Assembly (NCBI GenBank): GCA_016291005.1 | Contig: JAEEVT010000001.1 | Location: 1 to 64,000 of the forward strand | Source: Prevotella sp. | Lineage (GTDB): Bacteria; Bacteroidota; Bacteroidia; Bacteroidales; Bacteroidaceae | Reading direction: 5' to 3' | Length of the DNA stretch: 64,000 nt | Position numbers and translations under genes: made by a program | Shown: positions 16,169 to 21,751 of the stretch, piece by piece | Position numbering within the stretch: position 1 is the stretch's first letter | How the letters are laid out: each line of letters starts with the position of its first letter | The notes under the pieces: generated by a model | Databases searched by the model: none | Told to the model about the DNA's origin: nothing | What the model saw: the letters and a program-made list of their open reading frames with translations, nothing else

Positions 16169-16258
16169 AGGTGACTGCAAACGGATTGCAGTCACTTTGC
16201 ATTCACTCCACTTAAACAGTTATGTCTCAGCTGTTTAACCTAAAAAGTGAACGCAAAC
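16169..16258. repeat. Iteron-like TKCRKTCACT motifs, 5' side of VapE gene
   Basis: GTGACTGCAA-acgga-TTGCAGTCAC perfect 10-bp inverted repeat, TTTGCATTCACT, and AAAGTGAACGCAAA. Confidence 0.65.
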
Positions 16259-16398
16259 TGAAAAATCACTAAACTTTTGAAGAAGCATATATTAGGAGTA
16301 CCCCCGCCGAATCCACATAATCCCATTTGTATAAGCACCTGTCATGACGCTGAACTAATAAAATTCGGTTTTTATTTTGTTCTTTGCTCAGTAATTCG

Positions 16399-16406
16399 TA
16401 ACTTTG
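16399..16406 (+). promoter_or_regulatory. Bacteroidetes -7 element TAACTTTG
   Basis: TAnnTTTG consensus immediately upstream of the folded leader. Confidence 0.5.
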
Positions 16407-16431
16407 CACCTACATTCTGCAAAGAGTGGTA

Positions 16432-16565
16432 GGACATATTGCTCGTTTCCAACCGAATCGCTACCTCGAAAAGAATCTGAGCAAGTTCAATACCTAAGGA
16501 GTCACGCCATGGCGTGGGCTTCTCCATAAGGTATTGGGGTTTGTAGCGAACCCGGTTGGATATGG
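16432..16565 (+). ncRNA. Candidate structured RNA in 5' leader
   Basis: Nested complementary segments: CATAT/ATATG; CCAACCGaaTCGCTAC / GTAGCGAaccCGGTTGG; CAATACCT/AGGTATTG; GGAG/CTCC; CACGCC/GGCGTG; alternative TTGCTC/GAGCAA pairing. Confidence 0.45.
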
Positions 16566-16649
16566 TTGCGGTCTGCGCCATTTCTTGTATAAATAAGAGA
16601 GGTACAGAATCAGCCAATACATAGAAGAATAAAAGTTACTAATTAAGAT

Positions 16650-17123
16650 ATGAGTACAAAAGGTTTTTTAGTTGCATTGATGTTGGCGGCTTTTCCGATG
16701 ATAGGGGTGTTTGCTGATGGCGTCCGTTTTCTGACCGTGAATGCTAAAGACGGTACAAAGACGGAATTCGCATTGGCTGACGAGCCGAAGTTGACTTTTT
16801 CCGATGGCGAATTAAAGATAGTTGCCAGTAGCAGAACATTTTATATAAGACTTGCAGATTTACAGAACTATGCTTTCTCAAAGGAATCGACTGGTATTGC
16901 TGAGCTTTTGAAAGATGACAAAGTGACATTGGAGAATGGATTTGTTGTCCTTAGTTGCTTGTCGGCTGGAAGTAAAGTTGTGATTTATATGCAAGACGGA
17001 AAGATGGTCATGGAACATAAAACCGACGATAAAGGCATGGCGGTGGTAGACTTGTCGGTTTTGCCCAAGGGCGTATTAATTCTACAATCAAACAAAAGGA
17101 GTATAAAAATCATTAACAGATAA
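16650..17123 (+). CDS. Hypothetical secreted protein with T9SS-type-A-like C-terminal region
   Basis: Signal peptide; C-terminal 'GSKVVIYMQDGKMVMEHKTDDKGMAVVDLSVLPKGVLILQSNKRSIKIINR'. Confidence 0.6.
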   Translation: MSTKGFLVALMLAAFPMIGVFADGVRFLTVNAKDGTKTEFALADEPKLTFSDGELKIVASSRTFYIRLADLQNYAFSKESTGIAELLKDDKVTLENGFVVLSCLSAGSKVVIYMQDGKMVMEHKTDDKGMAVVDLSVLPKGVLILQSNKRSIKIINR

Positions 17124-17128
17124 GGATT

Positions 17129-18655
17129 ATGAAAGCAAAATTGTTTTCTATTTTGATTGGATTTGCAGCCTTGGCTCAAGTAGCCACAGCACAGACCACC
17201 ATTTACAGGATGCATGTAAAAATGAAGGACAGTTCAACCAATACCTACAAGGCTGATGACGTGCAGGAAGTTTACTTCACTGCCTCGCAACCTTACGACC
17301 CGTCGCATCCTGTGACAGCCGATGTGGAATCAATACACGCTCCGAAAGAGGGTGGAACTTATATCGTACATATCAACTCGGAGATACCCCTGTCAACATC
17401 AAGCGGTAATCCAGATGCTTTAATTGTTGATGACTATTTTTCCTATTTCTTGAATCAAGCTCCTGTCAGCCTAACAAGTACCTATAATGAGGGTACGCTC
17501 ACGATTACTGTTAATCCGACGACATGTTACATCGTAGATAATCGTGAAGTGAGGTTATTTGACCTTGAAGGCACAGAGGCCTTCTCACTAACAGTATCGC
17601 AGGATGGCGATCCCAATGCGACACTCATTGGCGAGAATGGAAACAACTATATCTCTTCTTTGGCGATGTCTATGCATGATAGTCATGCAAAATATCGCAG
17701 AGCTGATGTCAATTACACCGGATTGATTAGCCTTGATGGTTTTATGGCACCTTTAGAATCATACGACTACAGGGTGCGTGAGATATGGTTTACCATATAT
17801 CAAGGTATTTCTCGAAACATGCAGTTAATGGAGAATTGCGAAAGGCCAGGGATGGCTATCTTCAAGCCGATGTGTGCAGTTTTGAATGCCATGTCATATT
17901 ATGAATTGGTTACGTTCTTTGGTGGCGTTCCTTATTATACTAACGTGAATGATGCTATGGAATACCTTCCGAGAACAGAGCCCAATGTGATTTTCAGTAA
18001 CCTCATTGAACAATTGAAAGAAGCTATGGGAAACATGGAGGAGAAGGTGACTGGCTATGTAAACAGCTCGGAAAAGATGTACAAGATGTCGAAGGATATA
18101 GCCCGTGTGATGCTGGCCGATATCTATATGTATCAAGGCCGCTATATGGAAGCCAAGCCTCTGCTGGAAGAGATTGTAAACAGCCATCGCTATTCGTTGG
18201 TGTCGGCAGTAGATAATCTTGATCCCCAATGCTCGGAGATTATATGGAGTCAGGCCGTCAATACACCCACCAGAGCCAAAGCGAATGACATGACGGTAGT
18301 TTTCTTTAACGACGACCTTTGCATCATGCAGACATACGGCGATGTGCTGCTATCGTTGGCTGAATGTGAGAACAAGCTGAACAATGACTCTAAAGCCAAG
18401 GAATACTTGAATCAAGTGGCATCTGCAAAGGGAATCGAAACCACTTCGACTGAGACATTGGCTGCTATTTCGGAAATCCGCCATAGAATTCAGATTGACT
18501 TCGGCGGTTACTTCGCTTTTCTGAAGCGAACAGGTCAGGCTCAGACCACTCTCGGCCTCGAAGAATATCAGCTGCTCTTCCCGATTCCACAGGACGAAAT
18601 CAGCAGGAATCCTATGATAACGCAGAATCCGGGTTACGGAGAGACCACAAGATAA
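17129..18655 (+). CDS. Short SusD/RagB-like protein with BACON-like N-terminal domain and no lipobox
   Basis: Signal peptide MKAKLFSILIGFAALAQVATAQ without Cys; 'VESIHAPKEGGTYIVHINSEIPL' BACON-like; SusD-like C-term 'QLLFPIPQDEISRNPMITQNPGY'. Confidence 0.75.
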   Translation: MKAKLFSILIGFAALAQVATAQTTIYRMHVKMKDSSTNTYKADDVQEVYFTASQPYDPSHPVTADVESIHAPKEGGTYIVHINSEIPLSTSSGNPDALIVDDYFSYFLNQAPVSLTSTYNEGTLTITVNPTTCYIVDNREVRLFDLEGTEAFSLTVSQDGDPNATLIGENGNNYISSLAMSMHDSHAKYRRADVNYTGLISLDGFMAPLESYDYRVREIWFTIYQGISRNMQLMENCERPGMAIFKPMCAVLNAMSYYELVTFFGGVPYYTNVNDAMEYLPRTEPNVIFSNLIEQLKEAMGNMEEKVTGYVNSSEKMYKMSKDIARVMLADIYMYQGRYMEAKPLLEEIVNSHRYSLVSAVDNLDPQCSEIIWSQAVNTPTRAKANDMTVVFFNDDLCIMQTYGDVLLSLAECENKLNNDSKAKEYLNQVASAKGIETTSTETLAAISEIRHRIQIDFGGYFAFLKRTGQAQTTLGLEEYQLLFPIPQDEISRNPMITQNPGYGETTR

Positions 18656-18830: not shown

Positions 18831-19946
18831 ATGACAGAGAATCCTTTTATTACTTATGGATATGAGTCGGCAGAGTATTTCTGTGATCGAGAGGAAGAGA
18901 CTCGTCAATTGACGATGCTCCTGACGAATGGTAATCATGTGGCGCTGATTTCACCTCGCCGAATGGGTAAGACCGGATTGTTGAGCCACTGTTTCGCACA
19001 GCCTGACATGCAAGAAAATTATTACACGTTCTTGATAGACATCTATGCTACCAAGAATCTTCAGGACATGGTGTATCAGATGGGACGCAACATCGTCAGC
19101 AAACTGAAGCCCCGCGGACAGGCCGCCATTGGCCAGTTCCTGAAGTTTGTCACTTCCCTGCGCACAGGAATTTCCTTCGATGGCCAAGGCAATGCCAGTT
19201 GGAATCTGGGCATTGGCGACATCAAGTCTCCTTCGTTTACGTTGGAAGAGATTTTCAACTATCTTCAAGCCGCTGACAAGCGCTGTATTGTTGCCATTGA
19301 CGAGTTTCAGGCTGTTATGGACTATCCTGAAGAGAACGTTGAGGCTCTGATGCGAACTTACGTACAGCAATGCCGTAATGCCGTATTCGTCTTTTCCGGC
19401 TCCCAGAAGAGGATGATGAGCGAGATGTTCTCTTCGCCAGCAAGACCTTTCTACCAAAGTACGACGATGATGTTTCTGAAACCTGTCAGTCTGGCAGAAT
19501 ACGAGTCTTTTGCCAGACGTCATTTCGAAAAAGCCCATAAGAAAATTGCTGATGGCGTGGTGAAAGCCATCTATGAGCGGTTTGACGGTACAACGTGGTA
19601 TCTGCAGAAAGTGTTGAACCAACTCTTTGCCACGACAGAATCCGCCAAGGAAGAAGACGTCGAAAAGGCTGTCGAACAGATAGTTAACCAGAACGAGGAG
19701 GCATACAAGGACACCCTTTACCAGTTGACCGTCCGGCAACGCGACTTGCTTGTTGCCATTGGTCTTGAGGGAAAGGCAAGCCAGATTACTGGCATGGCGT
19801 TTGTAAAGCGTCATCACCTCTCGTCAGCCAGCAGTGTCCAGAAGGCAGCTCAGGTGCTTGAGGCGAAGCAGTTGCTGACCACTCAGCAGGGCATCCATGA
19901 AGTGTATGACAAATTCATGGGTGAATGGCTAAGGCATTATAGATGA
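18831..19946 (+). CDS. AAA/STAND-like ATPase (archaeal-ATPase-type)
   Basis: 'FCDREEETRQLTMLLTNGNHVALISPRRMGKTGLLSHCF' Walker A; 'RCIVAIDEFQAV' Walker B. Confidence 0.85.
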   Translation: MTENPFITYGYESAEYFCDREEETRQLTMLLTNGNHVALISPRRMGKTGLLSHCFAQPDMQENYYTFLIDIYATKNLQDMVYQMGRNIVSKLKPRGQAAIGQFLKFVTSLRTGISFDGQGNASWNLGIGDIKSPSFTLEEIFNYLQAADKRCIVAIDEFQAVMDYPEENVEALMRTYVQQCRNAVFVFSGSQKRMMSEMFSSPARPFYQSTTMMFLKPVSLAEYESFARRHFEKAHKKIADGVVKAIYERFDGTTWYLQKVLNQLFATTESAKEEDVEKAVEQIVNQNEEAYKDTLYQLTVRQRDLLVAIGLEGKASQITGMAFVKRHHLSSASSVQKAAQVLEAKQLLTTQQGIHEVYDKFMGEWLRHYR

Positions 19947-19949
19947 CTT

Positions 19950-20138
19950 AACCACGAACTTGAACTTTCACTTCTCTTACTTAACAACGAACTTGAACTT
20001 TCAGCTCGAGTTCGTTTCCGCTTGGAAGTGCAAGCAAGCTTTCACTTCTCTCACTTAACCACGAACTTGAACTTTTCAGTTCGAGTTCGTTCCCGTTCTG
20101 AAGTGTAAGCAAGCTTTCACTTCTCTCACTTAACCACG
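19950..20138. repeat. ~75-bp tandem direct repeats downstream of the nuclease gene
   Basis: Units 19990-20063 and 20064-20138 nearly identical, preceded by a partial copy; they repeat the KFVVK*-coding 3' end of the nuclease. Confidence 0.85.
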
Positions 20139-21751
20139 AACTTGCGGCCGTGCTTGATGTAGATGCCTGGTCGAAGCTGGTCGGTATCCACGCGGACACC
20201 TTGCAGGGTGTAGATGTTGTCGTCGTAGAAGCGCTCAGCCATCAGCTGCTCGATACCAGAAGGATTGGCCACGGTGATGTTGACGTTGGTAAGGGCTGCA
20301 TAATAATTTGTCGTAGTCTTTGTACCAGCGTTGTACTTTGACTGTACGTATTCCGTAGTAAACAGCACTTCGTCCTCTTCGCCTGTCCAGATATTATCGC
20401 TCATGGTACCCACGAAGGCTTTCACTTTTTTGTCTGCATGGTTGCTTTCACCTAAGGTAAACTCCACCTTCGTAATCTTGTTGTTGTGTGCCCTGAAAGT
20501 CAGCGTGTTATAGTTGTATAGGCGGATTTGGTCATCGTCTGCATAAAGATACTTACCACAGATGCCATAGCTAAAGGTAATGGTTACATTATCCTTATCT
20601 ATTGTGAGGGGAATGCGGTCATAATATTCACGCAAATTGTCGTATAGCGTCCAGTCCTTTCCTTCTGCTGCTAATTCGGCTTTGCGCTCTTCCGTTGGAT
20701 GCCAGTCAACATTGAAGGTGGTCTTGTTAAGAGCTATCTCACAATTGTCGGAGGTTGGTTCATTCTCTGGTAGTTCACCACCATAATCAAAAGCTTCGTC
20801 ATGCTGGTCTCCCCAGATGTAAATTTCCAGCCCTGGGTAGTCGACAAAGGGGTTTCGGTTACCCTGCATTCGCCAAACTTCTTCGTTTCGGTCTATCTCT
20901 TTCTGGCTGACAGGGTCGTTTTTTGACCATTTCATCAGCAGGTCAAATGCCCACGGAGCAAAAGGCTGATACGGGTCATCGTCCTCTAAGTTAAACATGT
21001 CTCCCGTCCATGTTCCACAATGGTCTCCGATGTTAGCGTCTGTTCCACTCCAAGTGGGTTGTCTTTTCTCATAAGCAGTTACCATGTAGAAGTAGATGCG
21101 TGCTATGTCACCCTTGTATTCGTCGTTGGGTTCGAAGCACCGGCCAGTATAAACAGGGGCATCTAATCCTTCAGGAATATAGGTGCATTTGCCCATTTTG
21201 CTAAAAGGTTTCTGTTCGGGGTCGTTGGGGTCTGGTTCCGAGCCATACCATTCACCATTGTTTGTGCCATAGGGGTTATTGCTGCGCTTGTTGTTAACAA
21301 TGCCTTCAGCAGGAATCACATGTGCAAGGTCGGAATACATAGGCCAGATGTCCTTGTAGGTATAACTACTTCCACTCTTTGCTGCTGGATTAAACCAACT
21401 CTTGGGCATCGAGTGTTCGCGCTGGAAACCTTTAGTTCCCTCTGGGTCTGTACCATATTTCCCGTTTCTATGGAGGTTAGTATAGATAGAGTAAGCCGAA
21501 TTACAGGAATACATATCCCAAATAATGGGTACAGTGTCTGTCGGAATGGCGTCAGAAGTGCGATATGCAGTCCATAGTGAGTCGTAGTCCATCACAGAAG
21601 GTGTATTGATAATCTCGTACATAGCCGTCTTCAGCTCGCGGCCTTTCTTGCCGTGGGCTTTCTGGTAATAAGTGCCTGTGCCGTTGGGCTGAGCCATTAA
21701 AACAACGGAAGTGATAGCAAGGCAAATAGTGGTAAGTAATGATCTTTTCAT
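20126..21751 (-). CDS. Secreted endonuclease I (EndA/NucM-like) with conserved C-terminal tail
   Basis: 'GTKGFQREHSMPKSWFN', 'DIWPMYSDLAHVIPAEGIVNNKRSNNPYG'; tail 'YTLQGVRVDTDQLRPGIYIKHGRKFVVK'. Confidence 0.85.
   Translation of the reverse strand: MKRSLLTTICLAITSVVLMAQPNGTGTYYQKAHGKKGRELKTAMYEIINTPSVMDYDSLWTAYRTSDAIPTDTVPIIWDMYSCNSAYSIYTNLHRNGKYGTDPEGTKGFQREHSMPKSWFNPAAKSGSSYTYKDIWPMYSDLAHVIPAEGIVNNKRSNNPYGTNNGEWYGSEPDPNDPEQKPFSKMGKCTYIPEGLDAPVYTGRCFEPNDEYKGDIARIYFYMVTAYEKRQPTWSGTDANIGDHCGTWTGDMFNLEDDDPYQPFAPWAFDLLMKWSKNDPVSQKEIDRNEEVWRMQGNRNPFVDYPGLEIYIWGDQHDEAFDYGGELPENEPTSDNCEIALNKTTFNVDWHPTEERKAELAAEGKDWTLYDNLREYYDRIPLTIDKDNVTITFSYGICGKYLYADDDQIRLYNYNTLTFRAHNNKITKVEFTLGESNHADKKVKAFVGTMSDNIWTGEEDEVLFTTEYVQSKYNAGTKTTTNYYAALTNVNITVANPSGIEQLMAERFYDDNIYTLQGVRVDTDQLRPGIYIKHGRKFVVK

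Follow-up and report, generated by a model that had tools for sequence, protein, structure and literature searches.

Structured leader upstream of a SusD-like operon

We analyzed a 64,000-nt stretch of DNA from Prevotella sp. (GenBank assembly GCA_016291005.1, contig JAEEVT010000001.1, positions 1 to 64,000 of the forward strand; the whole of this stretch is called the window), in which a Bacteroidetes-type promoter is followed by an operon encoding a small predicted secreted protein and a SusD/RagB-like protein (Table 1). The small protein showed only a weak match to Por_Secre_tail (E = 0.056), and its homologs are located behind the same RNA, described below, at two other loci (L024 and L037). 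The next genes in the window encode a STAND/ATPase_2-type AAA protein (18831-19946) and an endonuclease I family protein (20126-21751).

Between the promoter and the operon lies an RNA of approximately 175 nt (about 16407-16588, + strand), including a hairpin region at 16410-16565. The first-pass annotation had proposed a structured RNA at 16432-16565, between a promoter and a secreted/SusD-like operon; this proposal held, and every helix arm that it listed, with its coordinates, was present in the sequence. The element is longer than noted there, and includes a 5΄ hairpin (16410-16432), a 3΄ strand (16570-16579) and a U-rich tract extending to approximately 16588; the last two are strand c of the helix PK2 and the tract directly following it. 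The sequence from 16400 to 16600 folded with an energy of –71.3 kcal/mol, compared with –52.8 ± 4.5 kcal/mol in dinucleotide shuffles (n = 200; z = –4.1), none of which (0/200) folded as well.

Table 1. Features of the leader RNA and the adjoining genes in the window
Feature	Positions	Strand	Sequence or product	Evidence
Bacteroidetes-type promoter	16376-16406	+	TTTG (16376-16379), 19-nt spacer, TAACTTTG (16399-16406)	Read from the sequence
P1, 5΄-terminal hairpin	16410-16432	+	CTACATTCTGCAAAGAGTGGTAG	7/7 pairs changed on both sides; 88.7% of cells paired (100 homologs)
PK1 candidate	16439-16445 / 16479-16484	+	TTGCTC(G) / GAGCAA	GC core nearly invariant; covariation not above shuffles
P2	16448-16455 / 16553-16560	+	TCCAACCG / CGGTTGGA	7/7 pairs changed on both sides; 98.7% of cells paired
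P3	16458-16464 / 16543-16549	+	TCGCTAC / GTAGCGA	6/6 counted pairs changed on both sides; 100% of cells paired
P4	16488-16495 / 16529-16536	+	CAATACCT / AGGTATTG	10/10 pairs changed on both sides
P5a	16498-16501 / 16522-16525	+	GGAG / CTCC	4/4 pairs changed on both sides
Apical hairpin	16502-16516	+	CACGCC / GGCGTG (16503-16516)	Present in the sequence
Strand a, 5΄ side of apical hairpin P5b	16502-16508	+	TCACGCC	P5b (a:b): 7/7 pairs changed on both sides; 87.1% of cells paired
Strand b, shared by P5b (with a) and PK2 (with c)	16511-16521	+	GGCGTGGGCTT	Covariation in both pairings
PK3, enclosing the 3΄ strand of P3	16538-16541 / 16549-16552	+	GGTT / AACC	88.2% of cells paired; 3/4 pairs changed on both sides
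Strand c, partner of b in PK2	16570-16579	+	GGTCTGCGCC	PK2 (b:c): 94.7% of cells paired; 6/8 pairs changed on both sides
U-rich tract directly after c	16580-16588	+	ATTTCTTGT	T enrichment at this place across 128 loci
Operon gene 1	16650-17123	+	Small predicted secreted protein, 157 aa (MSTKGFLVALMLAAFPM...)	No Pfam family at E ≤ 0.001
Operon gene 2	17129-18655	+	SusD/RagB-like protein, 508 aa	SusD_RagB, E = 2.7e-12

Covariation and mutually exclusive pairings

The structure was tested using an alignment of 100 homologs (A6) and a structure of 52 pairs; overall, 93-100 homologs were aligned. Standard pairs occupied 89.4% of cells, whereas shuffles reached 68.7% and slid controls no more than 51%; changes on both sides were observed in 47 of the 52 base pairs. 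Compensatory changes in the helices across homologs, the criterion for a conserved structured RNA, were accordingly found, and the absence of covariation, which would have refuted the first-pass annotation, was not observed. The homologs are related by descent, and the shuffle statistics therefore overstate independence and inflate significance.

The alignment had been built around the nested helices, and helices missing from the models therefore give a cleaner test; PK2 and PK3, two additional helices, fall outside the nested hairpin. For PK2 (b:c), in which the great majority of cells were paired, slid controls did not exceed 59.8%. PK3 corresponds to GGYU/ARCC, and the variants GGTT..AACC and GGCT..AGCC were both found among homologs. 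P5b (a:b) also covaried throughout (Table 1). Since strand b is common to P5b and PK2, a:b and b:c cannot coexist and must alternate. Changes in b were accompanied by changes in both a and c: in three homologous loci (L099, L117 and L120), GCGC was replaced by GUGC in all three strands, and L160, with a CCGTG core, provides a second example. The mean energy of b:c was –15.9 kcal/mol, compared with –7.1 kcal/mol when c was shuffled, and that of a:b was –9.6 kcal/mol; on average, b:c was thus favored by 8.7 kcal/mol over shuffled c and by 6.3 kcal/mol over a:b.

The first-pass annotation had also suggested a switch, in which TTGCTC would alternatively pair with GAGCAA. The idea of a switch held in spirit, although not for this pair (PK1), which was almost invariant and showed no covariation above shuffles across homologs; the exclusive pairing supported by covariation is that of b with either a or c. 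PK1 may still form, but covariation does not prove it. By inspection, a divergent subclass of the RNA mostly lacks TTGCTC/GAGCAA. The proposed extension of the outer stem by CATAT/ATATG proved weak: most of CATA/TATG does not vary, and the pairing is lost in some homologs.

Two further candidate helices were rejected. A nested GAGC/GGYU helix, suggested by RNAalifold, was superseded by the GGYU:ARCC covariation of PK3, and the idea of a fourth strand, d, that pairs with c at every locus failed, such a strand being confined to a subset of loci. As a separate observation, TTAGTGCAG, located a few nucleotides past the U-rich tract, is complementary to c in L096, L134, L137, L147, L152 and L158, and represents a possible fourth strand in one sublineage.

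Distribution in Bacteroidia

BLAST comparison with 150 same-genus genomes gave matches to the region in 13, and, beyond similarity restricted to the promoter, these matches carried the same RNA in differing genomic contexts. Using a first covariance model (R1), we found the RNA in 154 of 300 same-genus genomes, usually in 1-8 copies as counted; the window's own genome contains three (C185, which is the window, C197 and C89). A second model (R2) detected it in 104 of 301 genomes, representing 14 of the family's 30 sampled genera; at the order level, 18 of 294 genomes carried it, with strong matches in seven other families of Bacteroidales. In a class-level sample of 289 genomes, R2 matched only the window's own genome and gave no match outside the order, a null result that doubles as a specificity control.

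A third model (R3), built from divergent copies, matched 80 of the 246 genomes sampled at the order level and 33 of the 194 sampled at the class level (E ≤ 1e-4), and placed the divergent subclass in other orders of the class Bacteroidia. In each of three genomes that were scored more deeply with this model, 13-22 copies were found. R3 is a looser model, and we therefore checked 26 matches outside its seed for features that the model does not describe. A U-rich tract was found in 25 of these 26, PK3 in 24, and an ORF within 160 nt in 21; the mean z-score of b:c complementarity was –3.2, with neither b:c nor PK3 being part of the model. Only a small number of candidates was scored in each genome, and the search counts are therefore minimum values. 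The E-values of the three models are rough, the compared genomes include metagenome-assembled ones and all of the evidence is comparative. The length of the RNA ranged from 166 to 194 nt in 140 homologs, without bias modulo 3.

Promoter, U-rich tract and downstream genes

The TAnnTTT element of the promoter (TAnnTTTG) ended 0-1 nt from the start of the RNA model in 108 of 129 loci. After strand c, the fraction of T was 0.48-0.86 at positions 2-9 (128 loci), compared with about 0.28 further downstream; the tract of the window copy is modest, and a C interrupts the tract in many Prevotella copies. An ORF on the same strand usually started 20-100 nt 3΄ of the RNA, although a few loci had no obvious ORF nearby (for example, L071, L144 and L169) or a long gap. 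A promoter at the RNA start and a same-strand ORF shortly downstream in most copies are what defines a cis-acting leader, and both are present.

Two observations concern the sequences around the promoter. The promoter stretch of approximately 39 nt (window 16370-16408) is repeated, at 79-90% identity, some 15-20 times elsewhere in the same genome, C182 and C115 being among the sites. At C158 (G000:C158:4281-4493; L002 and L005), it forms three tandem promoter copies that lie about 90 nt apart. An ATG-ACN-stop (Met-Thr-stop) frame, the third codon letters of which differ, was found 7-46 nt before the RNA in about 8 of the 35 divergent loci (L033, L159, L164, L167, L173, L174, L175 and L197), whereas a hand estimate puts its frequency by chance well below 1% per locus. 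This frame may represent a mini-ORF of the leader or, alternatively, a motif of the DNA (TATGACGTAA).

The 134 downstream proteins formed 84 clusters, among which no common pathway was found; hence, the downstream genes give no pathway hint to a ligand. A strongly hydrophobic N-terminus was predicted for 78% of the downstream proteins, compared with 38% of background ORFs (P = 5e-12), by what is a crude heuristic; the set is thus enriched for exported proteins. The commonest downstream family was that of BspA-type LRR proteins (13/107); others encode proteins with Por-secretion tails, OMP barrels and a C10 peptidase, and a few are of the defence type (EcoRI-like methylase, DarT and PLD/SNF2 helicase). 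The SusD-like context noted in the first-pass annotation is thus true of the window locus, but the element is not specific to SusD-like operons. Among the orthologs of the SusD-like gene, one (L025) is preceded by a divergent version of the RNA (L025:4736-4900), with a further promoter-like TAATTTTG between the RNA and the gene, and another (L026) has no such RNA upstream (L026:4700-5000). Near-identical RNA cores precede unrelated genes at the window and L010 (89% identical) and at L054 and L063, which suggests that the leader spreads between loci as a module. Separately, the near-identical divergent RNAs of L160, L162 and L166, from three families of Bacteroidales, are followed by the same PLD/SNF2-helicase-like gene, probably a defence gene, and horizontal transfer of both RNA and gene is therefore suggested.

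Proposed mechanism

Sequence comparison establishes a promoter, a fixed RNA start, a fold consisting of P1, the long arm P2-P3-P4-P5 and PK3, the alternative pairings a:b and b:c, a U-rich tract after c and a downstream gene. On this comparative evidence alone, without expression data, we lean slightly toward the interpretation that 16407-16588 is a cis-acting 5΄ leader functioning as a multicopy, strand-exchange transcription attenuator, the signal of which is unknown. In this model, the a:b helix would form first during transcription of the leader, and the emerging strand c would displace a to form a b:c helix of 10-11 bp directly before the U-rich tract, with helix and tract together causing transcription termination. 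An unidentified input (a ligand, a protein or another event) that stabilizes P2/P3/PK3 or a:b would decide which pairing wins; readthrough would yield the mRNA, and termination a leader RNA of approximately 175 nt. In this way, one common signal would govern different exported proteins across many genomes.

The arrangement expected of an attenuator, namely a helix (b:c) just before a U-rich tract and an alternative (a:b) sharing strand b, is present as far as structure is concerned. The attenuator or riboswitch logic itself is inferred, no ligand, protein partner or termination having been shown. Several points count against it: a terminator helix of the pseudoknot type is unusual, the U-rich tract is modest in the window copy and interrupted in many Prevotella copies, a few loci have no obvious ORF nearby or a long gap, L026 has no such RNA, and L025 has a further promoter-like element before the gene. 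A bolder reading, which on balance we would not yet back, is that the RNA constitutes an orphan riboswitch-like class across Bacteroidia, in up to at least about 20 copies per genome. Through a strand-exchange terminator with a pseudoknot, a single unknown cellular signal would then control exported and accessory genes that are otherwise unrelated (those for surface LRR proteins, OMPs and proteases, and some for defence).

The Bacteroidia dominate in gut and rumen and tune surface-protein repertoires of very large size, yet only a small number of regulatory leader RNAs is known from them. One multicopy leader common to unrelated genes for exported proteins would amount to a regulon that is invisible to protein-based annotation, and identification of its signal would uncover a global cue that sets the expression of surface proteins. 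Direct, testable predictions follow from the three strands a, b and c.

Alternative explanations

Ranked by the evidence in hand, control of translation is the main rival to attenuation. In such a translational leader, which remains possible, the same exchange would gate the start codon rather than termination, with pairing of c to a strand d near the start codon in some loci extending it to a relay between a:b + c:d and b:c, and the U-rich tract would serve ribosome loading. Strong c:d complementarity is indeed found just downstream in a subset of loci, for example L096 (TTAGTGCAGAC), L163, L193 (CAGTTCCA/TGGAACTG) and L033. However, over all loci, c:d only slightly exceeded shuffles and did not outperform segments located 190-300 nt downstream (P = 0.41), and no such strand was evident in the window.

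It is unlikely that the element is a trans-acting sRNA with its own promoter and terminator, from which the downstream gene is merely read through incidentally. A promoter and a terminator-like 3΄ end do bound the unit of approximately 175 nt, and Bacteroides does have multicopy sRNA families, FopS among them (PMC11697453). However, nearly all loci across the class have a same-strand ORF at a short distance, and FopS consists of a 5΄ single strand and one terminator hairpin, unlike the leader RNA, nearly all parts of which are base-paired and covary rapidly, leaving little room for a conserved seed.

Still less plausible is a DNA-level or mobile element (a REP/attC-like hairpin or an inserted repeat) that lies downstream of promoters by chance. 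Near-identical cores before unrelated genes (window/L010 and L054/L063) and the position of copies near contig ends in some genomes would be consistent with such an element; however, its single orientation with respect to promoter and gene and its fixed distance from the promoter argue against this idea, and a U-rich tract and strand-exchange covariation would be without function in a DNA hairpin. Neither nucleotide searches of phage and plasmid collections nor a pattern scan of IMG/VR returned a match to the element.

A protein-coding ORF on the minus strand (16372-16617), which the first-pass annotation had judged unconvincing, is all but excluded: an open frame of 81 codons exists, but it has no Pfam match, it is not conserved as a gene would be (homolog lengths vary without a 3-nt pattern, and any open minus frame was found in just 53 of 140) and the covariation pattern is that of RNA helices. 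The other outcome that would have refuted the first-pass annotation, conservation of the minus-strand ORF as coding sequence, was not observed either. A conserved ORF starting from an invariant ATGG inside the RNA was likewise rejected by inspection, the frame not being kept because the spacing to c varies.

Comparison with known RNAs

No Rfam 15 family matched the window at the gathering threshold, or up to E ≤ 5 over 16250-16750, and scans of 34 homologous loci to E ≤ 1 or 0.1 gave no match overlapping the RNA; the Rfam check proposed in the first-pass annotation thus identified no family, and it was our own covariance models that found homologs with extensive covariation. A sub-threshold match to BTnc060 (RF04184) was observed at L032:29-209 on the minus strand (77.7 bits, compared with a gathering threshold of 228.9; E = 1.8e-10); it lies approximately 730 nt from the RNA, on the other strand and near the second RNA copy of the window's own genome, and the RNA itself was not matched.

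In the literature searched, we found neither the motif nor Bacteroidetes leaders of this type. Bacteroidales-1, Bacteroides-1, Flavo-1 and Bacteroid-trp, which are structured RNAs predicted in Bacteroidetes (PMC2864571), are represented in Rfam and matched none of the homologs scanned. The candidates of PMC8040213 could in principle include fragments of the element, and an unnamed fragment among them is not excluded; the text places the Prevotella-only candidates that it discusses near uvrC and nowhere uses the word pseudoknot. The RNA is therefore probably undescribed, whereas structured cis-acting leaders as a kind are already known.

The FopS/GibS RNAs (PMC11697453) resemble the element in being multicopy RNAs of Bacteroidales with their own promoter and a terminator-like end, and gave no overlapping match in the Rfam scans of the window and its homologs. 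FopS of Bacteroides acts in trans through a single-stranded seed region followed by one terminator hairpin (PMC11697453), whereas the leader RNA is almost fully helical and is located in 5΄ leaders. Riboswitches of the c-di-GMP (GEMM) type occur in multiple copies before varied, often surface-related genes. They are alike in copies and in the variety of genes, but differ in architecture and taxa, and there is no Rfam match in sequence or structure.

Attenuators of the trp type and transcription-terminating riboswitches share with the leader RNA a structured 5΄ leader, alternative helices with a common strand, a U-rich tract and a gene directly downstream. The leader RNA differs from them in having no conserved downstream pathway, no known ligand and no Rfam match, and also in that its putative terminator helix joins a strand of the apical hairpin to the 3΄ tail across the whole structure, forming a pseudoknot. 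What is unusual is therefore the combination of a pseudoknotted strand-exchange terminator, as proposed here, with multicopy use before unrelated genes for exported proteins.
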